The notes below the pieces were generated by a model. That model was not told the DNA's origin and did not search any database. It saw only the letters and a program-made list of their open reading frames with translations. The translations under genes and the position numbers were made by a program. From Hyphomicrobiales bacterium (GTDB taxonomy: Bacteria; Pseudomonadota; Alphaproteobacteria; Rhizobiales; Rhizobiaceae), in assembly GCA_900473685.1 (NCBI GenBank), contig UCNE01000005.1:186001-250000 (forward strand): a stretch of 64,000 bases of DNA. Direction: 5' to 3'. Position 1 is the stretch's first letter; every line of letters starts with the position of its first letter. Of this stretch, positions 15,058 to 39,782 are shown one piece after another.

Positions 15058-16080
15058 ATGAACACGTCAAACATCGCGAAATCCACCCTGTTTACGGCGT
15101 CATTGCTGCTGAGCACGAGCGCTGTCTCGGCTGCTGAACTCAACATCTACACGACCCGCGAGCCGGGCCTCATCCAGCCGCTGCTCGATTCCTTCACGGC
15201 CGCGACAGGCACCAAGGTCAACACGGTTTTCATGAAGGACGGCCTGGCTGAGCGCGTCGCCACCGAAGGCGCAAGCTCGCCCGCCGATATCCTGATGACC
15301 GTCGATGCCGGCAATCTCATCGATCTCGTTGAAAAGGGCATCACCCAGCCGGTCGAATCCACCGTTCTGACAGAATCGATCCCCGCGCAGCTGCGCGACG
15401 AGAAGGGACATTGGTTTGCGCTGTCGATGCGCGCCCGCGTCATCTATGCCGCCAAGGACGTCGATCTGACGGGTTTCACCTATGAAGACCTGGCCGATCC
15501 GAAGTGGAAGGGCAAGATTTGCATTCGCTCCGGCCAGCATCCCTACAACACGGCCCTGTTTGCCGACCACATCGCTCATTACGGTGCTGAAGCAACCGAA
15601 AAGTGGCTGACGGGTCTCAAGGACAATCTCGCCCGCAAGGCAGCCGGTGGTGACCGTGACGGCGCCAAGGACATTCTCGGTGGCATTTGCGATATCGCTG
15701 TTGCCAATTCCTACTATGTCGGCCTGATGGGTTCGGGCAAGGGCGGCGAAGAGCAGGTCACCTGGGCCAATGCCATCAACGTCGTACTGCCGACCTTCAA
15801 GGACGGCGGAACGCAGGTCAATATCAGCGGCGCCGCCGTTGCCAAGAACGCACCGAACAAGGCCGAAGCCGTAAAGCTTCTGGAATATCTCGTCTCCGAC
15901 GAAGCCCAGAAGATCTACGCTGAAGCCAATTTCGAATACCCGGTCAAGGCCGGTGCGGCGGTCGATCCGATCATCGCCTCGTTCGGCGAACTGAAGATCG
16001 ATCCGAAGCCCCTGACGGAAATCGTCAGCCATCGCAAGCAGGCGAGCGAACTGGTCGACAAGGTCGGCTTCGACAACTAA
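15058..16080 (+). CDS. fbpA: Ferric iron-binding periplasmic protein (FbpA-like)
   Basis: 340-residue binding protein with signal peptide ending near AVSA|AELNIYTTREPGL. The adjacent tyrosines Y219-Y220 (ANSYYVGLMG) match the Tyr pair that coordinates Fe3+ in FbpA-type transferrin-like proteins, which supports true iron binding. GGAGAGAG lies 6-10 bases before ATG 15058. An iron box lies just upstream and an intrinsic terminator follows the stop, so this gene can be transcribed separately and in excess of the permease. Confidence 0.92.
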   Translation: MNTSNIAKSTLFTASLLLSTSAVSAAELNIYTTREPGLIQPLLDSFTAATGTKVNTVFMKDGLAERVATEGASSPADILMTVDAGNLIDLVEKGITQPVESTVLTESIPAQLRDEKGHWFALSMRARVIYAAKDVDLTGFTYEDLADPKWKGKICIRSGQHPYNTALFADHIAHYGAEATEKWLTGLKDNLARKAAGGDRDGAKDILGGICDIAVANSYYVGLMGSGKGGEEQVTWANAINVVLPTFKDGGTQVNISGAAVAKNAPNKAEAVKLLEYLVSDEAQKIYAEANFEYPVKAGAAVDPIIASFGELKIDPKPLTEIVSHRKQASELVDKVGFDN

Positions 16081-17807: not shown

Positions 17808-18599
17808 TTACATGGCGTGGCCAACGCCGGCGCCTGTCAGGATCATCACCAGCATCCAGACCGCCATCGCCACCATCATTACGTTTTCTGTCAGCGAGAC
17901 GAAGCCGAGCGGCACATTGCTGTCGCCGCCGACGCAGGCGCATTTCAGTTCGCGCTTGTCGATATAGACGGCCTTGAACACCGAGACGGCCCCGATCGTG
18001 CCGATGAACAGCGCCACGGGGATCGAGATCCAGTTGAGCGCCCCGGCAATCATCAGGATACCGGCACCCGCTTCCGCGAAGGGATAGATATAACTGTAGC
18101 GGACCCAACGCTTGGCAAGCAGGTCATAGTTGAGGAACATCGTTGAAAAGCTCTCGATGTTCTGCAGTTTCAGGGTCGCCAGCACCGCCATGGTGAAGGC
18201 GATGAACCATTCGGCCGAGCGCACGGTGAAGATGCTGCCATAGGCGGCGTAGCTGGCCGCCAGTGCCATCAGCGCAGTGACGGCAAAAACAGCGATAACA
18301 GGCCGGTAGGTCACTGCTTTCGGATCGCGGATCGTCTTGCCGAAATACCGGCGCAGGTCGTCATAGCCGCCGATGCGGGCACCTTCGATGAAGGTTTGGG
18401 GCGTCGTCTGAACACCATGCTGCACCTTGAATGCGTCGGTTTGTTCCCGCGTCGTCAGCCAGCGATCGTCCACCGCATAGCCCTGCTGTTCCAGAAGATC
18501 CTTGGCCTTCAGGCCGTAAGGGCAGGTGTGCTTGTCCATCACCATCCGGTAGAGAGTGGCGGTTTTCGATGTCTTGCCGGTCATATCGCAATCTTTCAT
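17808..18599 (-). CDS. Glutaredoxin-MauE fusion membrane protein
   Basis: 263 residues. Residues 12-90 form a glutaredoxin-like domain (HTCPYGLKAKDLLEQQGY, with cis-Pro motif TTPQTFIEG); the active site is CPYG, so only one cysteine of the CxxC pair is present (monothiol type). After about 95 come four membrane spans of the MauE/DoxX type, with a cysteine pair CAC near 225. Such proteins are thought to move electrons or thiols across the membrane. It is transcribed from a mer-type promoter shared with the divergent MerR gene, pointing to induction by a thiol-reactive metal or electrophile. Start may be ATG 18599 or 18584. Confidence 0.8.
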   Translation of the reverse strand: MKDCDMTGKTSKTATLYRMVMDKHTCPYGLKAKDLLEQQGYAVDDRWLTTREQTDAFKVQHGVQTTPQTFIEGARIGGYDDLRRYFGKTIRDPKAVTYRPVIAVFAVTALMALAASYAAYGSIFTVRSAEWFIAFTMAVLATLKLQNIESFSTMFLNYDLLAKRWVRYSYIYPFAEAGAGILMIAGALNWISIPVALFIGTIGAVSVFKAVYIDKRELKCACVGGDSNVPLGFVSLTENVMMVAMAVWMLVMILTGAGVGHAM

Positions 18600-18625
18600 T
18601 TCGCTTGGTTTGATCGATTGCAGGG

Positions 18626-18657
18626 ACTATAACATCCGTACTATGGTACGGAGTCAA
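18626..18657 (-). promoter_or_regulatory. Mer-type promoter/operator with long spacer
   Basis: Read on the minus strand: -35 TTGACT, then CCGTAC-CATA-GTACGG, then -10 TATAGT with a 20-base spacer (19 if TTATAG is used). The classic mer operator has TTGACT followed directly by CCGTAC-N4-GTACGG and a 19-base spacer, so this is almost identical. It drives the glutaredoxin-MauE gene and overlaps the region just upstream of the merR-like start, allowing autoregulation. Confidence 0.8.
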
Positions 18658-18660
18658 GCG

Positions 18661-19068
18661 ATGAAAGAGACGACGATTGCAGGGCTGGCGCGTGAGGGCG
18701 GCGTTGGCGTCGAAACGGTGCGCTACTACCAGCGGCGCGGACTGCTCGGCACCCCGCAGCGCCCCGGCGGCGTCGGTCTCGGTGGCGGCATCCGGCGCTA
18801 CGGCGACGACGATATCCGCCGCCTGCGGTTCATCCGGACAGCCCAGACGGCGGGTTTCACGCTGGATGAGATTGGCGAACTGCTGGCGCTGGATGCCGGT
18901 GAAGACCGGCATCGCGCTCATACATTGGCGCGCGAGCGTATCGTTGCGCTCGACGAGAAGATTGCCGAGCTGAGTGCTGCCCGTGCTTCGCTGCTCCGTC
19001 TTGCCGATGCCTGCGGCTCCACGTCAAAAGGCCCATGCCCGATCATCACCGCCTTCGACCTGGAGTGA
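18661..19068 (+). CDS. MerR-family regulator, MerR(Hg)-like but lacking the first metal cysteine
   Basis: 135 residues: winged helix (TIAGLAREGGVGVETVRYYQRRGLL..GGIRRYGDDDIRRLRFI), dimerisation helix and a C-terminal CGSTSKGPCPII. This aligns with Hg-sensing MerR, whose three ligands are C82, C117 and C126. The last two have equivalents here (spaced C-x7-C instead of C-x8-C), but the position of C82 reads Arg (LDAGEDRHRAH). Hg(II) trigonal binding as in MerR is therefore unlikely; another metal or a thiol oxidant may be sensed. It is divergent from its probable target, the glutaredoxin-MauE gene. Confidence 0.88.
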   Translation: MKETTIAGLAREGGVGVETVRYYQRRGLLGTPQRPGGVGLGGGIRRYGDDDIRRLRFIRTAQTAGFTLDEIGELLALDAGEDRHRAHTLARERIVALDEKIAELSAARASLLRLADACGSTSKGPCPIITAFDLE

Positions 19069-28884: not shown

Positions 28885-28925
28885 GGGGCGGCGCCCGGTG
28901 GCGCCAGCCCCAATTTCGCTTTTTC
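28885..28925. terminator. Hairpin between convergent genes
   Basis: GGGGC-GGCGCC, loop CGGT, then GGCGCC-A-GCCCC forms an 11-pair stem with one bulged A, followed after some bases by TTTTT in the plus direction. It lies between the convergent HPP-CBS gene and phosphatase gene and probably terminates the former. Confidence 0.6.
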
Positions 28926-29721
28926 AGAGCCCGGCGATTTTCATCAGGTCTTCGCGAGCGCCGGGAGCCGTCGCCAATACGGGCGAACCCTTGGTCAGCT
29001 GTTCTCCTTCAACAGGGAAGGGATGATACCAGCCGCCGGCTTCCTTGACGAGGCAATAGCCGGCCAGGCAATCCCACGCGTGCATGTAGGGCTCGTAATA
29101 TCCCACCAGACGGCCGGCGGCGACATAGGCGAGCATCAGTGCGCCGGAGCCGTTGCGGATGAAGTTGCCGCCTGCTGCCAGAAGATCCTCGACCATCTTG
29201 CCGACGAAAGCCGGTGTCACGTAGTTGTTGGCGCCGATGCCGGTGACGGCGTTGCGGATCGTGCGGGAAGGATCAAGCGTCAGCACCCGGCCATTGAGTG
29301 TCGCGCCCTTGCCGGTGGCACCGGCATAGAGTTCGTCGTGGCAGGGGGCGCAGATGACGCCGATCACCGGTTCGTTGTTGTGCAGGACTGCGATCGAGAC
29401 GCACCAGTTTGGCATGCCGTTGACGAAAGGGCTGGTGCCGTCGATCGGATCGACCACCCAGGTATAGCCGGAATCGCCGCGCGCAAGGCCGTACTCCTCA
29501 CCCAGAAATCCGTCGTTTGCGTGTGCTTCGGCGACGCGGGCGCGGATGAGGTTTTCAACCTCGCGGTCTGCGATGGAGACGACATCCTGCGGGTCGCGCT
29601 TGGTTTCAATCACCAGTGTTTCGCGTCTGTTGTAATAATCGAGCGCGACCGCGCCCGCTTCCTTGGCGATGGCCTGGGCCAGGGCGAAACGTATGTCGAG
29701 CCCGGAGATCTGCGATGTCAT
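28924..29721 (-). CDS. Inositol monophosphatase-family sugar phosphatase
   Basis: 265 residues of the Mg-dependent IMPase/FBPase superfamily. Metal ligands: GEEYGL near 75 and DPIDGTSPF near 95 (DPxDGT motif), and the late AWDCLAGYCLVKEAGG near 220. AAGAGGA lies 9 bases before ATG 29721; the longer upstream frame is within the ATPase gene end. It is the last gene of the afu-like operon, 31 bases after the ATPase. A phosphatase beside a sugar-phosphate importer would dephosphorylate or recycle the imported ester, which supports the non-iron reading of this locus. Confidence 0.87.
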   Translation of the reverse strand: MTSQISGLDIRFALAQAIAKEAGAVALDYYNRRETLVIETKRDPQDVVSIADREVENLIRARVAEAHANDGFLGEEYGLARGDSGYTWVVDPIDGTSPFVNGMPNWCVSIAVLHNNEPVIGVICAPCHDELYAGATGKGATLNGRVLTLDPSRTIRNAVTGIGANNYVTPAFVGKMVEDLLAAGGNFIRNGSGALMLAYVAAGRLVGYYEPYMHAWDCLAGYCLVKEAGGWYHPFPVEGEQLTKGSPVLATAPGAREDLMKIAGL

Positions 29722-29752
29722 GAAGTTGGTCCTCTTGCGATATGCTTGCGGC

Positions 29753-30814
29753 TCAGCCGTTGATGATGGCGATGCCGCGTCCCTTGAAGCCGATGGCGAC
29801 CTCGGTTGCCGGCGCAAGTGCGCGCTCGACGGCCGGATCGACAACGAAAAGTCTGCCTGTGCTCGTCTCTACCTCGTATTCGACATGGTCGCCAAGATAG
29901 GCAGCGTGGGTGATCTGGCCCGGATAGGCGGCCCCGGATGCCGGCTCCAGGGTGATTGAATTCGGTCGCACGGCAAGCTTTGCCGGTCCCGGTTTGGCGT
30001 TGCGGCTCGGAACCCGATGTTCCAGTCCGGCGATGCGGATCGTCGCGTCGGCGCCATCGACGCTGATGACATCGCATGAAACCACATTGGCCTCGCCCAT
30101 GAAGTCGGCAATGAAGGCCGAGGCCGGTGCCTCGTAGAGATCGCGGGGCGAACCTTCCTGGGCAATCACGCCGTCCTTCATGATGACAATACGGTCGGAG
30201 ACGGCCAGCGCCTCGTCCTGGTCGTGGGTGACGTAGACGGCGGTGAAGCCGAGGCGCTGCTGCAATTCGCGAATTTCGGTGCGCACCTGGCGGCGCAGCC
30301 GGGCGTCGAGGTTGGAGAGCGGTTCGTCGAGCAAAAGCACCTGCGGCTCGAGCACAAGCGCGCGGGCAACGGCGACGCGCTGCTGCTGGCCACCGGACAG
30401 TTCAGCCGGAAGCCGCCCGCCCATGCCGGCGAGACCGACGAGCTTCAGGCCTTCTTCGGCTTTCTCGCGCGCTTCCTTCTTCTTCAGCCCGGACGATTCC
30501 AGGCCATAGGCGACATTGTCGAGCGAGCTCATATGCGGAAACAGCGCATAGGACTGGAACACCATCGAGACATCGCGCTCATTGGCAGGCAGCATGGTCA
30601 CGTCCTTGCCGCCGATCAGGATCTTGCCGGAACTTGGATGTTCAAGGCCCGCCAGCATGCGCAGCGTCGTGGTCTTGCCGCAGCCCGACGGGCCAAGCAG
30701 CGTCACCAACTGGCCGGGCTCGATGGTCAGGGACAGGTCGTGGATCGCGGTAAAGGCGCCGAACTGCTTCTTGATATTTTGAAAGACGACCGAGCCGGAG
30801 CGGGGAGTGATCAT
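29753..30814 (-). CDS. afuC: ABC importer ATP-binding protein, AfuC-like
   Basis: 353-residue ATPase with TOBE domain after about 240. Walker [10 protein letters not shown] near 40, Q-loop [10 protein letters not shown] near 85, signature LSGGQQQR near 138, Walker [13 protein letters not shown]-loop VYVTHDQDEA. Starts inside the permease stop (ATGA overlap at 30811-30814). Sequence-wise it belongs to the Fe/spermidine/sulfate group, so cargo must be inferred from the binding protein. Confidence 0.85.
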   Translation of the reverse strand: MITPRSGSVVFQNIKKQFGAFTAIHDLSLTIEPGQLVTLLGPSGCGKTTTLRMLAGLEHPSSGKILIGGKDVTMLPANERDVSMVFQSYALFPHMSSLDNVAYGLESSGLKKKEAREKAEEGLKLVGLAGMGGRLPAELSGGQQQRVAVARALVLEPQVLLLDEPLSNLDARLRRQVRTEIRELQQRLGFTAVYVTHDQDEALAVSDRIVIMKDGVIAQEGSPRDLYEAPASAFIADFMGEANVVSCDVISVDGADATIRIAGLEHRVPSRNAKPGPAKLAVRPNSITLEPASGAAYPGQITHAAYLGDHVEYEVETSTGRLFVVDPAVERALAPATEVAIGFKGRGIAIING

Positions 30815-33042
30815 GCGGTTTTCTCCTGACCGAGGGTGAGGGAAGGGGTTGTGGTAACGCCGGCGACGCGATTTTCGCGCCGCAACCGGCGTTCACCGAC
30901 GAGAAGCTGGAAGCCGGCGATGACGACGATCATCACGACGATCAGCATCGAGGAATAGGCGATCGCTACGCCATACTCGCCGTTTTCGACGAGGCCGACG
31001 ATATAGGAGGTCGCCATGTTGTATTCGGCGCTGACCAGGAAGATGACGGCGCTGATCGAGGTGATGGCCCGAACGAAGGAATAGACCAATGCCGCGGTGA
31101 TCGCTGGGCGCAGCAGCGGCAGGATGACCTTGCGGATCGTCCGGAAGCTGGTGGCGCGCAGGGTCAGCGATGCCTCGTCGAGGCTCTTGTCCAGTTGGCT
31201 CATCGCCGCCACGCCGCCACGCACGCCGACCGGCATGTTACGGAAGACGAAGCAGGCAATCAGGATCAGCGCCGTGCCGGTCATTTCCAACGGCGGCAGG
31301 TTGAAGGCCATGATGTAGCTGATGCCGATGACCGTGCCGGGGATGGCGAAGCTCATCATCAGGGCGAATTCGAAGACGTTGCGGCCGGCGAATTTCTGGC
31401 GGACGATAAGATAGGCCGTCAGCAGGCCGACAGCGGCCGTCAGCGGTGCCGAAATCAGCGCGATCTCGATCGTCGTCCAGAAGGAGTTCCAGGCCACACC
31501 GGTCCAGGCGAGCGCCCCATCACGCATTTCGACGGAGAAGGCGCGGGCGTAGTGGTCAAGGGTCAGCGAGTTGTCCAGTCCCCAGGTCTTCACGAAGCCG
31601 CCGAACAGGATCATGCCATAGATGACGATGGTGAAGACCATCCACGGGATGACCATGGCGTGCACGGCAATGGAGACCGGGCGCGGCAGCGCGATGTGCG
31701 CACCGCTGTCACCCTTGCCGGTGACGGTGGCGAAATTCTTGCCCGACAACCAATAGCGCTGCGCAAGAAACGCCGTCAGCGTGAAGCAGAGCAGGATGAT
31801 GGCAAGCACGGCGGCGCGGGACGGATCGTTCTGCGAACCGACGACGGCAAAGAAGATTTCCGTCGAGAGCACGCCATGGCTGCCGCCAAGTACCAGCGGA
31901 TTGCCGAAATCGGCCATGCTCTCGATGAAGCCGATCAGGAAAGCGTTGGCGATGCCCGGTTTCATCAAGGGCAGCGACACGCGCCAGAATGTACGCCAGC
32001 GGTCGGCGCGCAATGTCTGGGAGGCTTCCTCCATCGACGGGCTGACGCCTTCGACGACGCCGATGAGCACGAGGAAGGAAATCGGTGTAAACGACAGGAC
32101 CTGGGCGATCCAGATACCGGTGAGGCCATAAAGCCAGCGGCCGGGCTCAATACCGAACAGGCTGGACATCCATTCGGTGATGACACCGGCGCGGCCGAAA
32201 AGCAGCGTCAGCGCAAGGCCGATGACGAAGGGCGGGGTGATGATCGGCAGGACCGTCAGGAGCCGCAGGCCCTTCTTGAAGGGAAAGCGCGTGCGGGTGG
32301 CGACCAGAGCAAAGGCAAGACCCATGATGGTCGAGCCGCCGGCCGTCATCAGGGCCAGCCACAGCGTGCGCCACGCGACGCCGCAGCGTTCGCCACCGAC
32401 CACGCAGCCGAGGCTCCAGATCGAATTGTCCTGGATGTTGCGGGTAAAGCCGTCCGGATTGAACGATCCATCGAAATCCTGGAAGGCGCCGACCAGCATG
32501 CTGCCGACGGGGTAGAACACGAAGATCGCAACGAGGAAAACCAGCATGGCGATGGAGGCGACAACGAAGGCATCGCCCTTCATGACGCCGCGTTCGGCAA
32601 GGCCGAAGGAGAAAATGAGCACGAAGGCGACGGCCGAGAGTACGGCGCCGGCCCCCATCGAAGGCTGTCCGTCGGCAAGCGCGCCGAACAGCGTTTCGCT
32701 GATCGTCCAGCTCCAGCCGGAAAAGCCGATCGCCAGCCCCTGAAGCGTCAGGAAGAGAACGCCGGCGGCACCGGCTGCAGCAAGGACCGCGCCTCGCTGC
32801 ATCGGATCGCGCAGAAACCGCGCTGCGACGGCAGCGGCCATGATCAGCGCCGGAATGGTCAGCCACCAACGGCCGTACTCAAGGATCTGCAGGATGCCCG
32901 GTGTGACGGAGGCCTCGGACGGGAAACCGGAGAACCAGCCAAATCCGAGAAACCCGCCTTCGATCCGGTACCAGGGAACCAGAAGGAAGGCGGCAATGCC
33001 TATTCCGAGGACAATATCCAGCCTACGGTTGCGATGGTCCAT
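30811..33042 (-). CDS. afuB: Long fused ABC permease, AfuB-like
   Basis: 743-residue membrane protein, longer than the 550-residue FbpB at 16146. About four extra N-terminal spans precede two permease halves whose EAA loops read SPSMEEASQTLRADRWRTFWRVSLPLMKPG (near 340) and DKSLDEASLTLRATSFRTIRKVILPLLRPA (near 640). The long N-terminal extension is a feature I associate with AfuB permeases. The 148-base gap to the upstream binding-protein gene contains a strong stem. Confidence 0.82.
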   Translation of the reverse strand: MDHRNRRLDIVLGIGIAAFLLVPWYRIEGGFLGFGWFSGFPSEASVTPGILQILEYGRWWLTIPALIMAAAVAARFLRDPMQRGAVLAAAGAAGVLFLTLQGLAIGFSGWSWTISETLFGALADGQPSMGAGAVLSAVAFVLIFSFGLAERGVMKGDAFVVASIAMLVFLVAIFVFYPVGSMLVGAFQDFDGSFNPDGFTRNIQDNSIWSLGCVVGGERCGVAWRTLWLALMTAGGSTIMGLAFALVATRTRFPFKKGLRLLTVLPIITPPFVIGLALTLLFGRAGVITEWMSSLFGIEPGRWLYGLTGIWIAQVLSFTPISFLVLIGVVEGVSPSMEEASQTLRADRWRTFWRVSLPLMKPGIANAFLIGFIESMADFGNPLVLGGSHGVLSTEIFFAVVGSQNDPSRAAVLAIILLCFTLTAFLAQRYWLSGKNFATVTGKGDSGAHIALPRPVSIAVHAMVIPWMVFTIVIYGMILFGGFVKTWGLDNSLTLDHYARAFSVEMRDGALAWTGVAWNSFWTTIEIALISAPLTAAVGLLTAYLIVRQKFAGRNVFEFALMMSFAIPGTVIGISYIMAFNLPPLEMTGTALILIACFVFRNMPVGVRGGVAAMSQLDKSLDEASLTLRATSFRTIRKVILPLLRPAITAALVYSFVRAITSISAVIFLVSAEYNMATSYIVGLVENGEYGVAIAYSSMLIVVMIVVIAGFQLLVGERRLRRENRVAGVTTTPSLTLGQEKTA

Positions 33043-33088
33043 GACGATCCCCGCGCCTTTTCATGATGTCAAATATGGAGTGATGAGT

Positions 33089-33136
33089 GGCCGGGGACCG
33101 CGCCGCAATCTGTGGAGGGTTGCGCGATCCCCGGCC
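33089..33136 (-). repeat. Intercistronic stem between afuA-like and afuB-like genes
   Basis: GGCCGGGG (33089-33096) pairs with CCCCGGCC (33129-33136), with further partial pairing (GCGC/TTGCGC) inside. No T-run follows on the minus strand. Such stems after binding-protein genes usually protect the upstream message and lower downstream expression. Confidence 0.5.
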
Positions 33137-33190
33137 GGGAGAAACCCTGGATCAGGCCGCAGCAAAAGCCACGGCCCGGCCGGTTCTCTC

Positions 33191-34222
33191 TTAGTTGGCG
33201 TTGGCGCTGATCTCGCGATCCCAGCGCTCAAGCAGTTCCTTGCGCTTGGCCGGATCGCCATAGGTCTTGAAGTCGTAGTCGATCAGCTTGATGTCTTCGA
33301 AGCGTGGCGCTTCCTTCGGGATTTCGGCCGTCTTGTTGGACGGCAACTGGAAGGACTTCGCATCCTTCATGCGCGACTGCACATCCGGCTGGAGCGCCCA
33401 ATCATACCATGTCTTGGCATTGTCGAGGTTTTTCGCGCCCTTGACGATCGACATCGAGCCGATCTCGTAACCGGTGCCTTCGCACGGAGCGACCGACTTG
33501 ACCGGAAAACCTTCGGCCGTCTGGGCAACGGCGTCATGCATGAAGACGATGCCGATCGCCGTTTCGCCGCGCGCTGCAGCCTTCACCGGGGCAGAGCCGG
33601 ATTTGGTGTATTGCGAAATGTTGGCGTTGAGCTTCTTCAGATAGTCGTAGGCCTGGTCTTCGCCCATGATCTGGACGAGAGAGGCAAGCGCCGTATAGGC
33701 AGTGCCGGACGAGTTGGGGTTGGCGATCTGGATTTCACCCTTGAAGGCAGGGTCGAGAAGGTCGGCCCAGCACTTCGGCTCCTGGAAGCCCTTGGCCTTG
33801 AAAATCTCGGTATTGTAGCCCCAGCCGAGCGCGCCGGCATAGACGCCGACCGTCTTGTAGCCGGAGCTTTCCGCCTGCTTCTTGGCCCAATCCTGCAACT
33901 GGTCGAGCATCGGCGACTTGTATTCCTGTGTCAGGTTTTCAGAGGCTGCCTGCAGGTGCGGATCGCCGGTCCCGGCCCACCAGATATCGGTCTTCGGGTT
34001 GCGCGCTTCGGCACGGATCTTGGCATAGGTCTCGCCGGATGACAGGCGCACCATGTTGACCTTGATGTCACCATGCGCCTTCTCGAAATCGCCCTTCATC
34101 TGCTCGCAGATGACCACGTCAGCCGAGCAGATCAGGTTGAGGTCGCCGGCCGCCTGGGCCGAAAAAGCGGACAGTGTCGTTCCGGCGGCCAATGCAGCGA
34201 CGGCAATATATCGTGAACCCAT
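33191..34222 (-). CDS. afuA: Periplasmic binding protein, AfuA-like (probable sugar phosphate)
   Basis: 343 residues with a 24-residue signal peptide (cleavage after SAQA) and AACAGGAGGAAG upstream. It belongs to the family usually annotated as ferric-iron binding, but the adjacent iron tyrosines of FbpA are absent. Precursor residues H229, D230 (FMHDAV) and E253 (GTGYEIG) become H205, D206 and E229 in the mature protein; these are, as I recall, the hexose-phosphate ligands of AfuA from Actinobacillus. Together with a downstream phosphatase and a divergent LacI regulator this points to phosphosugar uptake. Confidence 0.8.
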   Translation of the reverse strand: MGSRYIAVAALAAGTTLSAFSAQAAGDLNLICSADVVICEQMKGDFEKAHGDIKVNMVRLSSGETYAKIRAEARNPKTDIWWAGTGDPHLQAASENLTQEYKSPMLDQLQDWAKKQAESSGYKTVGVYAGALGWGYNTEIFKAKGFQEPKCWADLLDPAFKGEIQIANPNSSGTAYTALASLVQIMGEDQAYDYLKKLNANISQYTKSGSAPVKAAARGETAIGIVFMHDAVAQTAEGFPVKSVAPCEGTGYEIGSMSIVKGAKNLDNAKTWYDWALQPDVQSRMKDAKSFQLPSNKTAEIPKEAPRFEDIKLIDYDFKTYGDPAKRKELLERWDREISANAN

Positions 34223-34265
34223 GAAACTTCCTCCTGTTGAAACAGCGCCTCCACGCCGGTCGCTT

Positions 34266-34369
34266 TTGCAAGCGTGTGCAAATGCTGCATGAGATGAAAA
34301 CGGCTGTCAAACAAAATCTTCATAAAACTGTCACATTTCGCTCGATCGAATGCTTGCACGCAATTGCAA
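34266..34369. promoter_or_regulatory. Two LacI-type operators, TTGCA-N6-TGCAA
   Basis: TTGCA-AGCGTG-TGCAA (34266-34281) and TTGCA-CGCAAT-TGCAA (34354-34369) lie 88 bases apart between the divergent afuA-like and lacI-like genes. The 16-base symmetric form fits LacI/GalR dimers, and two sites about eight helical turns apart would allow looping. Assigned to the adjacent LacI protein by position. Confidence 0.65.
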
Positions 34370-34406
34370 AATTGTGCAGATTATCCATCAAGGGTGGAGT
34401 GCGCCG

Positions 34407-35411
34407 GTGTCGCAGAAATTATTCGTAAGTGCTCAGGAAGTAGCGGAAAAAGCAGGTGTTTCCCGCTCTGCGGTTTCCCGCACGTTTACATCAGGCGCCA
34501 GCGTGTCGCCGAAAACGCGGCAAAAGGTGCTGGATGCCGCCGAGGCGCTCGGTTACCACGTCAATCATCTTGCCCGCGGCCTCATGCGCAATGAAAGCGG
34601 TATCGTCTGCCTGATTGTTTCGGAAATCAGTACGCCGTACCGCTCGGCGCTTCTGCGCGCGCTCACTCTGCAGCTGCAGAATTCTGGCAAGGTCGCAATG
34701 TTGATCAACACCGACCGGTCGGACGGCAGCGTCGACCTCGCGCTGAGGCAAGCCATCCGCTACCGCGCCGATGCCTCGATCATATTGTCGGGCCTGCCAG
34801 ACAAGTCGATTACCGATCTCTGTCTGAAGAATGGCCAGCGGCTGGTTCTGATCAACCGCGACGATGACCGGGAAGGACCGCTGAAGATCAACCTCGATGA
34901 CGCAGACGCGGCGGCGCGTATCGCCACGGCTTTCGTGCGGGCCGGCTGCCGCAAGCTTGCCTTCGCCAATTCGCAGGCGGGCACTCCGAGCCTGATGGCC
35001 CGCGAGCACGGCTTTGTTGCCGCTGCCAGGGCGCTGGGCATGGATGTGATGGTGGAGCGCTTCGGTCATACAGGCTATGAAAGCGGCCGGGTTGTCGCCC
35101 AGCAGCTTCTGACCCGCAAGGAGCGCCCCGACGCGGTGTTCTGCGCCACCGACCTTCTCGCCTGCGGCTTCATGGATGCCGCCCGCCATCAGTTCTCGAT
35201 GTCCATACCCGATCAGATTTGCGTCGCCGGTTTCGACGATATCGAACAGGCGTCGTGGTCTTCCTATGGGCTGACCACATTCGCGCAACCAGTGGACACG
35301 ATTGCCCGCGAGGCCGTGTCATGGCTGGTGGCGGAGACGGCCGAACCCGAGAACCACAAGGTGCGCCTGCATGCCGATCTGGTGTGGCGCACCTCGATCA
35401 GGGGCGGTTGA
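34407..35411 (+). CDS. LacI-family transcriptional regulator
   Basis: 334 residues: HTH SAQEVAEKAGVSRSAVSRTF at the start, hinge helix (LDAAEALGYHVNHLARGLM) and a periplasmic-binding-protein-like effector domain (IVCLIVSEISTPYRSALLRAL; IILSGLPDKS; CVAGFDDIEQASW). Start at GTG 34407 is supported by GGTGGAG 7 bases upstream; the upstream ATG at 34350 lies inside the second operator. Divergent from the afu-like operon, which it likely represses until a sugar or sugar phosphate is bound. Confidence 0.88.
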   Translation: MSQKLFVSAQEVAEKAGVSRSAVSRTFTSGASVSPKTRQKVLDAAEALGYHVNHLARGLMRNESGIVCLIVSEISTPYRSALLRALTLQLQNSGKVAMLINTDRSDGSVDLALRQAIRYRADASIILSGLPDKSITDLCLKNGQRLVLINRDDDREGPLKINLDDADAAARIATAFVRAGCRKLAFANSQAGTPSLMAREHGFVAAARALGMDVMVERFGHTGYESGRVVAQQLLTRKERPDAVFCATDLLACGFMDAARHQFSMSIPDQICVAGFDDIEQASWSSYGLTTFAQPVDTIAREAVSWLVAETAEPENHKVRLHADLVWRTSIRGG

Positions 35412-36857: not shown

Positions 36858-39782
36858 TTGGAACATGTTTTTCTGCGGCGAGCGGCATTGTCGCGGCCTG
36901 ATGTGAATGCCGAAGACGCAGCGAGCCTTCTTGCCGCTCACTATGGCCTGTCGGGGCCGGTCACTGAGCTGGGCAGCCAGCAGGACCGCAATTATCGTAT
37001 CGACGCGCCCAGCGGCCGGTTCGTCCTGAAGATCTGCCGCGCCGACTATGCGACCGTCGAGCTTGAAGCGCAGAATGCGGCCTTGCGCCACATTGCCGGT
37101 CAGGCTGCGGCACCGCGGGTCCCGAAGATCATTCCGGCCGGCAATGGCGCGGACATCCTGTTCGTCGCTCTCCGTGGTGAAAAATATCAGATCCGCCTGC
37201 TCGACTATATCGAGGGTCAGCCGTTGACACGGCGCAAGCACCTGCCGGCGGTCACCGTTGCAGCACTCGGGGCGTTGGGTGGGCGGCTGGCGCTGGCGCT
37301 GGCGGATTTTTCGCATCCCGGCCTGTCGCGCGACCTGCAATGGGATTTGCGCAACGCCGAGGCCGTGGTCAGCCATCTGCTTTCGGCGGTGAAGGATGCC
37401 GATCGCAAGCAGCGTATCAGCACGGCGATGGATGCCGCCATGCGGCGGCTCGACGGTCTGAAGCCGGATCTGCGGCAACAGGCCATCCACCATGACATCA
37501 CTGACGACAATGTCGTCAGCTTGCCGAATAGCGGCGGCCAGCTGATACCCGATGGCGTGATCGATTTTGGCGATGTCATCCATGGCTGGCTTGCCGCCGA
37601 TCTCGCCGTCACCTGCGCCTCGCTGTTGCATCATGCCGATGGCGATCCGCTGGCCGTCCTTCCTGCGATCAAGGCATTCCATGCTGTTTTCCCGCTCAAC
37701 GAAGCGGAATTGCGCGCACTCTGGCCTTTGATCGTGGCGCGCGCAGCCGTGCTGGTGGCAAGCAGCGAGCAGCAGCTCGCGCTCGACCCGGACAACAGCT
37801 ATGTCAGCGGCAATATCGACCACGAACGGCAGATCTTCGAGGTCGCCGTTTCGGTGCCATCAGCCGTGATGGAAATCGCCATCCTGCAGGCTGTCGGCCA
37901 AATGGGCGATCCGGGGCCTGCGATCACCGGCGAACGGCTGTTGCCGGAAGTCGATCTTTCCGCAATTGCTGTGGTCGCCCTGGATACGCAAAGTGCGCTG
38001 CTCGATGGGGTTGCGTGGCCGCAGCCGGGCCTTGAAGACCGGCTGCTCCTGGCGGCATCGCTCGAAAACGCCACTGTGTCGACGCGCTACGGCGAATACC
38101 GGTTGACCCGGACCGTGCTGCGCTCACCGGACCCTGCGGAAACATGCGCTGTTCACGTCGACCTGCGCTTGCCAGCAGGTACCAGCGTCTCCGCGCCATT
38201 TGGCGGCATTCTCAAACTCACCGATCGCGGCCTGATCTTGCTGGGGCGGGATGCTGCGCTGCATCTTTCCGGCATCGAGACCTTGCCTGGCCCGGACGAT
38301 TTCATCCATCCCGGCCAGCCGCTCGGTCTTGTCGCCGGTGCGTCCGGTGACAACGGGGTGCTGCGCGTTCAGCTTTGCCGTGACAAGGATATCCTTCCGC
38401 CACTGTTCGTCTCGCCCGGTCAGGCTGCGGCATGGAGCATCCTCTGCCCATCCCCGGCAAAGCTGCTCGGCTTTGACTGCGATGCGCCCGCGCCGCAGAG
38501 TGCAAAGCTTCTTTCGCGCCGCCAGAGCCATTTCGCCAAGCCGCAGAAGAATTATTACGAGACGCCACCGCAGATCGAGCGCGGCTTGCGTGAGCATATG
38601 GTCGATGTTGAAGGGCGTGCCTATCTCGACATGGTCAATAATGTCAGCATTCTTGGCCACGGCCATCCGCGTCTAGCCGATGCCGTGCACCGGCAGTGGC
38701 AACGGCTGAACACCAATTCTCGTTTCCACTATGCTGCCGTTGCGGAATTTTCCGAAAGGCTGGCCGACCTTGCGCCGGAAGGGCTGGATACGGTGTTCCT
38801 GGTCAATAGCGGTTCGGAGGCCAACGATCTGGCGCTCCGGCTCGCCTGGGCCGCGAGTGGCGCGCGCAACATGCTGTGCCTGCTGGAAGGCTATCACGGT
38901 TGGTCGGTTGCCAGCGACGCGGTCTCCACCTCGATTGCGGACAACCCGCAGGCATTGACCACCCGGCCGGACTGGGTGCACCCGGTGATGTCGCCCAATA
39001 CCTATCGCGGCGCGTTTCGCGGGGCCGGCTCGACCGCCGCCTATATCGAAGCCGTCATGCCGGCGCTGGAAAAACTGGACCGGGACAGTAAGGGGCTGGC
39101 CGGGTTCATCTGCGAATGCGTCTATGGCAATGCCGGCGGCATCCCGCTGCCGCCGGGCTATCTCAAGGAGATCTACGCAATGGTCCGGGCGCGTGGTGGT
39201 ATCTGCATCGCCGATGAAGTCCAGGTCGGGTACGGTCGCCTCGGTCATCATTTCTGGGGTTTTGAAGAGCAGGGCGTGATCCCCGATATCATTACCGTCG
39301 CCAAGGGCATGGGCAACGGCCACCCGCTCGGCGCCGTCATCACCACCAAGGCGATCGCCGATGCGCTGGAGAAGGAGGGCTACTTCTTCTCGTCGGCCGG
39401 CGGCAGTCCGGTCAGCTCCGTCGTCGGCATGACGGTGCTGGATATCATGCGCGATGAGAAGCTGCAGGAGAACGCCCGGGCCGTCGGTGATCACCTCAAG
39501 CGCCGTCTGCAGGCGCTGGAGCAGCGGTTTCCGATTGTCGGCGCCGTGCACGGGATGGGCCTCTATCTCGGGCTGGAATTCGTCCGTGACCGCGAGACGC
39601 TGTCGCCCGCGACTGACGAGACGGCAGCGATCTGCGACCGGCTGCTGCAACTCGGCGTCATCATGCAGCCGACCGGCGATCATCTGAACGTCTTGAAGAT
39701 CAAGCCGCCGCTTTGTCTGTCGCGCGAGAGTGCCGATTTCTTCGCCGATATGCTGGAGCGTGTGCTGTTGGACGGATGGTGA
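36858..39782 (+). CDS. Kinase / degenerate M23 / class-III aminotransferase fusion (predicted phospholyase)
   Basis: 974 residues. (1) APH-type small-molecule kinase, about 20-330: FVLKICRAD nucleotide lysine, HHDITDDN catalytic loop near 213, DFGD near 235. (2) Residues 400-540 correspond to the M23/LytM-like domain of the paralogue at 59851, but the Zn ligands are lost (HVDLRL, LRVQL). (3) Class-III aminotransferase, 550-970: GHGHPRLADAV, DEVQVGYGR, PLP Lys K816 in TVAKGMGNGHP. Vertebrate ETNPPL and PHYKPL are phospholyases related to such bacterial fusions, so kinase then phospholyase action on an amino alcohol is predicted. TTG start with GGAGGGG 8 bases upstream. It leads the polyamine-type cluster. 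Confidence 0.85.
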   Translation: MEHVFLRRAALSRPDVNAEDAASLLAAHYGLSGPVTELGSQQDRNYRIDAPSGRFVLKICRADYATVELEAQNAALRHIAGQAAAPRVPKIIPAGNGADILFVALRGEKYQIRLLDYIEGQPLTRRKHLPAVTVAALGALGGRLALALADFSHPGLSRDLQWDLRNAEAVVSHLLSAVKDADRKQRISTAMDAAMRRLDGLKPDLRQQAIHHDITDDNVVSLPNSGGQLIPDGVIDFGDVIHGWLAADLAVTCASLLHHADGDPLAVLPAIKAFHAVFPLNEAELRALWPLIVARAAVLVASSEQQLALDPDNSYVSGNIDHERQIFEVAVSVPSAVMEIAILQAVGQMGDPGPAITGERLLPEVDLSAIAVVALDTQSALLDGVAWPQPGLEDRLLLAASLENATVSTRYGEYRLTRTVLRSPDPAETCAVHVDLRLPAGTSVSAPFGGILKLTDRGLILLGRDAALHLSGIETLPGPDDFIHPGQPLGLVAGASGDNGVLRVQLCRDKDILPPLFVSPGQAAAWSILCPSPAKLLGFDCDAPAPQSAKLLSRRQSHFAKPQKNYYETPPQIERGLREHMVDVEGRAYLDMVNNVSILGHGHPRLADAVHRQWQRLNTNSRFHYAAVAEFSERLADLAPEGLDTVFLVNSGSEANDLALRLAWAASGARNMLCLLEGYHGWSVASDAVSTSIADNPQALTTRPDWVHPVMSPNTYRGAFRGAGSTAAYIEAVMPALEKLDRDSKGLAGFICECVYGNAGGIPLPPGYLKEIYAMVRARGGICIADEVQVGYGRLGHHFWGFEEQGVIPDIITVAKGMGNGHPLGAVITTKAIADALEKEGYFFSSAGGSPVSSVVGMTVLDIMRDEKLQENARAVGDHLKRRLQALEQRFPIVGAVHGMGLYLGLEFVRDRETLSPATDETAAICDRLLQLGVIMQPTGDHLNVLKIKPPLCLSRESADFFADMLERVLLDGW

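Follow-up and report, generated by a model that had tools for sequence, protein, structure and literature searches.

What does an operon import when automatic annotation files it under ferric iron and its binding protein resembles AfuA, a binding protein for sugar phosphates? We followed this question at positions 28924–35411 of a 64,000-nucleotide stretch of DNA (the window) from a Hyphomicrobiales bacterium of the Rhizobiaceae (GenBank assembly GCA_900473685.1, contig UCNE01000005.1, positions 186,001 to 250,000). Genes for a binding protein, a permease, an ATPase and a phosphatase follow one another here on the minus strand, and a LacI-family regulator gene diverges on the plus strand; all five lie where an earlier, sequence-only reading had placed them. 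That reading had proposed phosphosugar rather than iron uptake. It was right about the AfuA family and about rejecting iron, and uptake of a phosphate ester also stands, but hexose phosphate as the ligand was not established, and the substrate claim should be widened from hexose phosphate to phosphate ester.

We propose that the operon encodes an AfuABC-family ATP-binding cassette (ABC) importer for a small phosphorylated ring compound, that it is repressed by its own LacI protein and that its likeliest ligand is myo-inositol monophosphate, a reading to which we give a probability of about 0.5. That a phosphate ester of some kind is imported is close to certain; the choice of myo-inositol monophosphate as this ester is tentative, slightly ahead of hexose phosphate. 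The family, the pocket residues, the gene order, the operator and the neighbours in relatives are supported by sequence, and from them we infer the ligand, the substrate of the enzyme and the inducer of LacI.

The binding protein belongs to the AfuA family

The binding protein gene (33191–34222, minus strand) encodes 343 amino acids (aa) with a signal peptide of about residues 1–24. Mature numbering, used below, takes cleavage to follow residue 24, in keeping with both the AQA-AG sequence and the low confidence of residues 1–24 in the structural model. By sequence (phmmer against the PDB), the protein matches AfuA (4r72, E 4.8e-92), its Vibrio relative (8x1a, 4.6e-89) and P5PA (1.1e-69), after which E values drop to 2e-11. 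Five AlphaFold models were made from 20 sequences (mean predicted local distance difference test scores of 82.8, 75.2, 63.8, 53.3 and 46.4) and the best was used. Comparison of the predicted structure with AfuA, a check suggested in the sequence-only reading, identified AfuA as the closest solved fold: the first five Foldseek matches are AfuA (E 6.1e-38 to 2.3e-37), and AfuA, VcA0625 and P5PA lead the next entry by about 14 orders of magnitude. Against AfuA bound to glucose-6-phosphate (G6P; 4r73), the model gives template modelling scores of 0.86 and 0.92, a root-mean-square deviation of 2.0 and 48% identity. The genome carries one such binding protein, the next-best match being 32% identical.

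The residues first singled out as AfuA ligands, His, Asp and Glu at mature positions 205, 206 and 229, are residues 229, 230 and 253 of the full-length protein and align with H205, D206 and E229 of AfuA in both phmmer and MAFFT alignments. They also occur in all 80 near relatives, by which we mean the best 80 of 498 loci, mostly from Rhizobiaceae; Rhizobium sp. Root1334 and Root483D2 are among the loci at 99%. Alanine mutants of AfuA at these three positions lose G6P binding, according to an excerpt of Sit et al. 2015 (PMC4546632), in which the same H/D/E motif collected 268 AfuA homologues, including 121 alpha- and betaproteobacterial ones. Sit et al. also give values of 8 nM for fructose-6-phosphate and 23 nM for G6P in binding to AfuA, and none for glucose-1-phosphate.

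The conserved Tyr pair of FbpA has no counterpart in the binding protein, and we rejected a ferric-binding identity for it on this ground. Tyr-Tyr is present in the protein encoded at 15058–16080 (plus strand), which is a true FbpA, as had been supposed, and matches Bordetella FbpA (1y9u) at E 3.5e-138. Both kinds of system do stand in one window, the true FbpABC about 11 kb from the AfuABC-type operon. The binding protein shares its fold class with those of the FbpABC and FutA ferric importers, unlike which it lacks the Tyr ligands; among the Foldseek matches listed, solved iron-binding proteins reach 15–21% identity and E values of about 1e-20, as against 1e-38 for AfuA. Control by LacI through a dedicated operator also speaks against a ferric importer. 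For one speak the best NCBIfam name of the ATPase, which is that of a ferric ATPase but falls below the cut-off (377 versus 496 bits), and the Rhizobium etli proteins, possible orthologues of the window gene, that an excerpt of PMC9611204 files under ‘afuA, fbpA; iron(III) transport’. Iron, the ligand given by automatic annotation, is very unlikely.

Models for aminoethylphosphonate transport, PhnS2, PhnU2 and PhnT2, rank first in NCBIfam for the binding protein and the permease and second for the ATPase. We rejected this identity because all three fall below their curated cut-offs (218.2 versus 392.75, 283.8 versus 593.25 and 371.6 versus 457.7 bits, respectively).

A conserved phosphate site and a changed ring side

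An excerpt of PMC8427247 lists 19 residues around G6P in AfuA, and 16 of them are identical in the window protein. The identical residues comprise all seven of the phosphate site (S37, G38, T60, S148, G149, T150 and G185), the three that hydrogen-bond to the ring (Y103, H205 and Q269) and six of nine further G6P contacts (S9, G59, S184 and F203 as well as D206 and E229). The G6P shell is not identical throughout: T11D, G36S and I186S differ. Positions 11, 36 and 186 are Asp, Ser and Ser in all 80 near relatives, and an AfuA-type set of nine proteins has Thr at 11, Gly at 36 and Ile or Val at 186 in every case. This set was drawn from seven loci, one of them (L131) nearly the same as AfuA itself, and two PDB sequences. 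Two loci with twin binding proteins (L127 and L171) were left out of the count; one protein of each fits AfuA at the three positions and the other does not. The binding protein is thus an AfuA-family member with a conserved phosphate grip and an altered, more polar ring side.

These substitutions bear on the alternative that the operon imports hexose or heptose phosphates, the AfuA ligands G6P, fructose-6-phosphate (F6P) and sedoheptulose-7-phosphate (S7P), with the phosphatase serving as a relief valve or in an unrelated role. We regard this as unlikely, although it is a serious contender: H205, D206, E229 and all seven phosphate-site residues are conserved, and the motif gathered 268 homologues, many alpha- and betaproteobacterial, but three G6P contacts (T11, G36 and I186) are changed in every near relative. 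H/D/E does not by itself fix the substrate, being common to proteins with different neighbours, and a search with this motif alone would not see the changes at 11, 36 and 186. P5PA is 54% identical to AfuA, keeps the His, has Ala for the Asp and Glu, and binds pyridoxal phosphate (excerpt of PMC8427247). The window protein resembles P5PA of the P5PA/P5PB pyridoxal-phosphate importer (6wce; 37% identity) in its phosphate site but, unlike P5PA, which has Ala at 206 and 229 and Leu at 105, it has D206, E229 and Gly105, so that it does not fit P5PA.

In a tree of 142 rows built by a quick method, the AfuA-, P5PA- and UhpC-type proteins form a group of 14 rows (support 99), or 15 rows at the end of a long branch when locus L224 is included (support 100), and the window protein falls in a separate group of 20 rows (support 99). 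Twelve of the 80 near relatives went into the tree, and another 13 loci were left out because they were near-duplicates or fragments; 195 loci were scanned for neighbouring genes. One locus (L112, in genome G377 with family code f49) has a LacI-type operon with phosphatase and a 76% identical binding protein, in a family otherwise represented by loci with an AfuA-type major facilitator superfamily (MFS) protein, and looks like a case of transfer between classes.

A phosphatase ends the gene row

The permease gene (30811–33042, minus strand) is of the long, two-domain AfuB type, with 743 residues and two PF00528 stretches. Its length had been reported correctly and taken as a pointer to phosphosugar uptake, but such a length is normal for this permease family: permease open reading frames (ORFs) of relatives run from 687 to 785 aa, as against 552 aa for FbpB of the window, and 79 of the 80 near-relative loci have the permease. 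The ATPase gene (29753–30814, minus strand; AfuC type, 353 aa, PF00005 and TOBE_2) overlaps it by 4 nucleotides (nt). The gene row thus has the long two-domain permease and single ATPase of an AfuABC-type system, as in AfuABC of Actinobacillus pleuropneumoniae (AfuA, PDB 4r72–4r75) and Vibrio VcA0625 (8x1a), to whose binding proteins that of the window is 48% and 46% identical over the model. Unlike AfuABC, it also includes a phosphatase, and a LacI gene stands where six AfuA-type loci have a UhpA/UhpB-like pair and an MFS protein alongside (Uhp names assigned by eye).

The phosphatase gene (28924–29721, minus strand) encodes 265 aa from ATG 29721, 31 nt past the ATPase gene, a more likely start than TTG 29844. 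The enzyme had been called a sugar-phosphatase; it is a phosphatase, of the inositol monophosphatase family (PF00459, E 6.8e-53), and sugar as its substrate was a guess. Its nearest solved relatives, by best PDB matches, are inositol-1-monophosphatases and SuhB, and its sequence contains GEE, DPIDGT and WD, which we take to be the catalytic motifs of the family. A HisN identity was rejected, as the HisN model scores 159 bits against a cut-off of 275. Motif 5 of histidinol phosphatases, an Asp with aromatics (excerpt of PMC5516325), is also absent: the stretch 24 residues before the Asp of WD reads RNGSGALML, with no Asp or aromatic residue (by eye).

Phosphatase homologues accompany the transporter in 69 of the 80 near-relative loci. 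They also occur within 6 kb, in several gene orders, in 47 of 83 other fully flanked H/D/E loci, a set with a few members from outside the Alphaproteobacteria (the 105 loci outside the AfuA/UhpC/Pasteurella-type group, L112 excepted, minus 7 lacking an H/D/E protein and 15 lacking 6 kb flanks). No such homologue was found in the nine AfuA/UhpC/Pasteurella-type loci, L127 and L171 included. Five loci without one, all of genus code g512, have a homologue of a haloacid dehalogenase (HAD)-type phosphatase within 6 kb, and seven loci (six near relatives and L199) carry both kinds. Because G6P and F6P, once imported, can be used without a phosphatase, this pattern suggests an ester that has to be dephosphorylated before use, which counts against hexose phosphate as the ligand.

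The genome holds seven further matches to the phosphatase, the best at 41%. Elsewhere in the genome (L241, C29:33000–44000), a paralogous LacI regulator and phosphatase, each at 41%, lie with a calcineurin-like phosphoesterase and a Na/Pi cotransporter, in what is likely another phosphate-ester cluster.

Inositol catabolism genes adjoin the transporter in some relatives

The transporter has homologues of inositol catabolism genes as neighbours in loci L116, L117, L119, L133, L135, L136, L138, L145, L146, L149, L204, L206 and others. Curated cut-offs are exceeded by IolC and IolG of L117 and by IolG, IolD and IolE of L116, and in L117 and L119 the genes for IolG, phosphatase, binding protein, permease and ATPase are consecutive on one strand. 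Such linkage occurs in 14 of the 83 loci, as against 4 of 83 for the G6P-pathway genes zwf or edd, three of these from one genus.

In 15 of 80 genomes, the transporter and an IolG above its cut-off are within 10 kb of each other, with gaps of 0.8–6.4 kb; FbpA, taken as a lenient control, has IolG within 10 kb in 0 of 71 genomes, and where the two share a contig they are no closer than about 27 kb. Random placement would give about 0.3 of 80 genomes, by hand arithmetic with about one copy, 20 kb and a genome of about 4.7 Mb. The distances were read by eye, and the 80 genomes are what was left of 94 after 14 were dropped by hand, one of which (G1000, L207) is iol-linked. On the tree the iol label changes at least 12 times; therefore the linkage is not one inherited event and reflects repeated gain or loss. 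A regulator with an rpiR-type representative occurs within 6 kb in eight loci, all iol-linked.

Three of the 15 IolG-linked loci (L163–L165, in genomes G729, G573 and G503) form a deep group that keeps H/D/E and has Asp37 and Gly60. They adjoin iolG (L163 also iolE), and no phosphatase homologue was found in them. Their phosphate grip is thus altered, which fits an unphosphorylated cyclitol and makes their proteins candidates for binding one, a contrast of the kind that an inositol reading predicts, resting on three loci.

Taken together, these observations would fit the following route. The seven phosphate-site residues would hold the phosphate, and Y103, H205, D206, E229 and Q269 the ring; the long permease and the ATPase would bring the ester in, and the inositol-monophosphatase-family enzyme would remove its phosphate in the cytoplasm. 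The ligand could be, for example, one of the last products of phytate breakdown in soil, and would yield inositol for the Iol pathway as well as phosphate. We tentatively extend this to the large alphaproteobacterial AfuA-like lineage as a whole, whose members may mainly be inositol-monophosphate importers with a ring site repurposed from hexose to cyclitol.

Several observations weigh against inositol monophosphate. The determinants of G6P binding, H/D/E, are intact. No iol genes were found in the window or, for any of the 80 near-relative loci, in flanks reaching up to 8 kb, and the IolG above cut-off that the window's genome does have is on another contig. FbpA, as an iron gene, has no reason to sit near sugar catabolism. 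Among the 14 iol-linked loci, only L136 has both D11 and S186; L133 and L145 share S186, and 11 have neither. The pairing of iol genes with the phosphatase is not significant across independent tree pairs, and for zwf and the phosphatase there were too few such pairs. A search of the genome for beta-propeller (PF02333) and histidine-acid (PF00328) phytases found none, the protein tyrosine phosphatase-like family being outside this search. In three loci of one genus (L115, L179 and L180), zwf and edd stand beside phosphatase and transporter, and zwf stands beside L123, neighbours that favour hexose phosphate, as does the fact that LacI regulators usually sense sugars. In L130, zwf and edd are in line with a divergent paralogue of the binding protein that has no His205; despite these G6P-pathway neighbours, the paralogue probably binds something other than the AfuA set.

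A probable local LacI repressor, and a kinase in many relatives

The regulator is divergent, as first described, and has both PF00356 and PF13377. Its ORF was called at 34350–35411 (plus strand), but its start is probably GTG 34407, because an operator-like repeat (O2, TTGCACGCAATTGCAAAATTGTGCA, 34354–34378, plus strand), next to the LacI gene, falls inside the ORF called from 34350 and because orthologues align only from the GTG. An inverted repeat near the binding-protein promoter (O1, TTTGCACACGCTTGCAAA, 34265–34282, minus strand) is the putative operator, and lies just downstream of a conserved −35-like element, TTGACAG (34304–34310, minus strand). In the 28 divergent intergenic regions between lacI and binding-protein genes (the window and 27 loci, read by eye), TTGACA is present in all and the TGCAC core of O1 in 27, and a repeat similar to O2 has the same place in most LacI-type loci (also by eye). 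Across the 5.5-Mb genome the exact O1 site occurs once, as the sole site with no mismatch, and O2 is a site with three mismatches. Allowing up to three mismatches, the pattern gave 12 strand-hits in the genome against nine for a reversed control; the sites other than O1 and O2 look like background, and a wider LacI regulon was rejected. To judge from these motifs, the layout is that of a local repressor with an operator overlapping the promoter.

The 80 near-relative loci divide between 61 with a histidine kinase and 19 with LacI; a second AfuA-like binding protein, about 48% identical, is also found in 61. In these 61 (L015, L028 and L056 among them), tandem AfuA-like binding proteins and a divergent histidine kinase and response regulator replace LacI. 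By analogy with HptA/HptS, the second binding protein may be the ligand sensor of the kinase. PDB entry 6lkg, which we take to be HptA, is distantly related to the binding protein, and the second binding protein beside a kinase in many relatives recalls that system; the window operon, unlike HptA/HptS, has neither beside it. HptA/HptS of Staphylococcus aureus serves G6P sensing (excerpt of PMC8774646). We rejected the kinase form with two binding proteins as ancestral, since LacI loci stand at the base of the 20-row group that contains the window protein, and the kinase form falls in an inner group of eight rows. It is likelier that the LacI form is ancestral and the kinase form derived, in a tree made by a quick method with several forks open.

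A further alternative is that another small phosphate ester (a sugar-1-phosphate, a glycerophospho compound, another phosphorylated cyclitol or a broad mix) is taken up as a phosphorus source under phosphate limitation. Genes resembling ugpB and ugpE of glycerol-3-phosphate importers (by eye) stand beside the operon in eight of the 80 near-relative loci, such as L031, L033, L041, L073 and L081, and the paralogous LacI and phosphatase pair beside a phosphoesterase and a Na/Pi cotransporter also points this way. So does a Pho-box-like site at 34317–34336, which matches 16 of 20 letters of a Pho-box consensus, scores higher than any other site in the 64 kb and is retained in part by close relatives. 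We rejected Pho-box control as anything beyond a weak point for this alternative, since the site is not retained in deeper LacI-type loci (such as L020, L041, L066 and L067), and the conserved ring-binding residues argue for a ring ligand. We consider such an ester improbable, more so than hexose phosphate, and prefer myo-inositol monophosphate.

Other genes in the window

At 36858–39782 is an ORF of 974 residues that appears, by eye, to fuse a kinase-like N-terminal part to an aminotransferase-like C-terminal part. Adjoining the FbpABC genes, an ORF for a glutaredoxin-like/membrane fusion protein (17808–18599) overlaps a divergent MerR-like regulator (18556–19068), again by eye.

Implications for phosphate-ester uptake in soil bacteria

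Import of inositol phosphate as a function is not without precedent. KEGG has a module for an inositol-phosphate transport system (InoEFGK) in another ABC family. Phrase searches of the literature did not turn up such a role for the AfuA family among the papers listed, which is weak evidence of absence; one listing was swamped by an unrelated acronym. In an excerpt of PMC9611204, ‘myo-inositol 1-phosphate’ is already among the transport functions listed; the same source labels rhizobial proteins, possibly orthologous to that of the window, ‘afuA, fbpA; iron(III) transport’, so that uptake of phosphorus or carbon may be misread there as uptake of iron. With an AfuABC-type operon and a true FbpABC about 11 kb apart, the window offers a clean side-by-side test case. 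If the ligand is indeed an inositol phosphate, soil bacteria would have a high-affinity ABC route for it. If this holds across the lineage, they would draw carbon as well as phosphorus from the last products of phytate decay, a function hidden first under the label ‘ferric iron’ and then under ‘G6P’.

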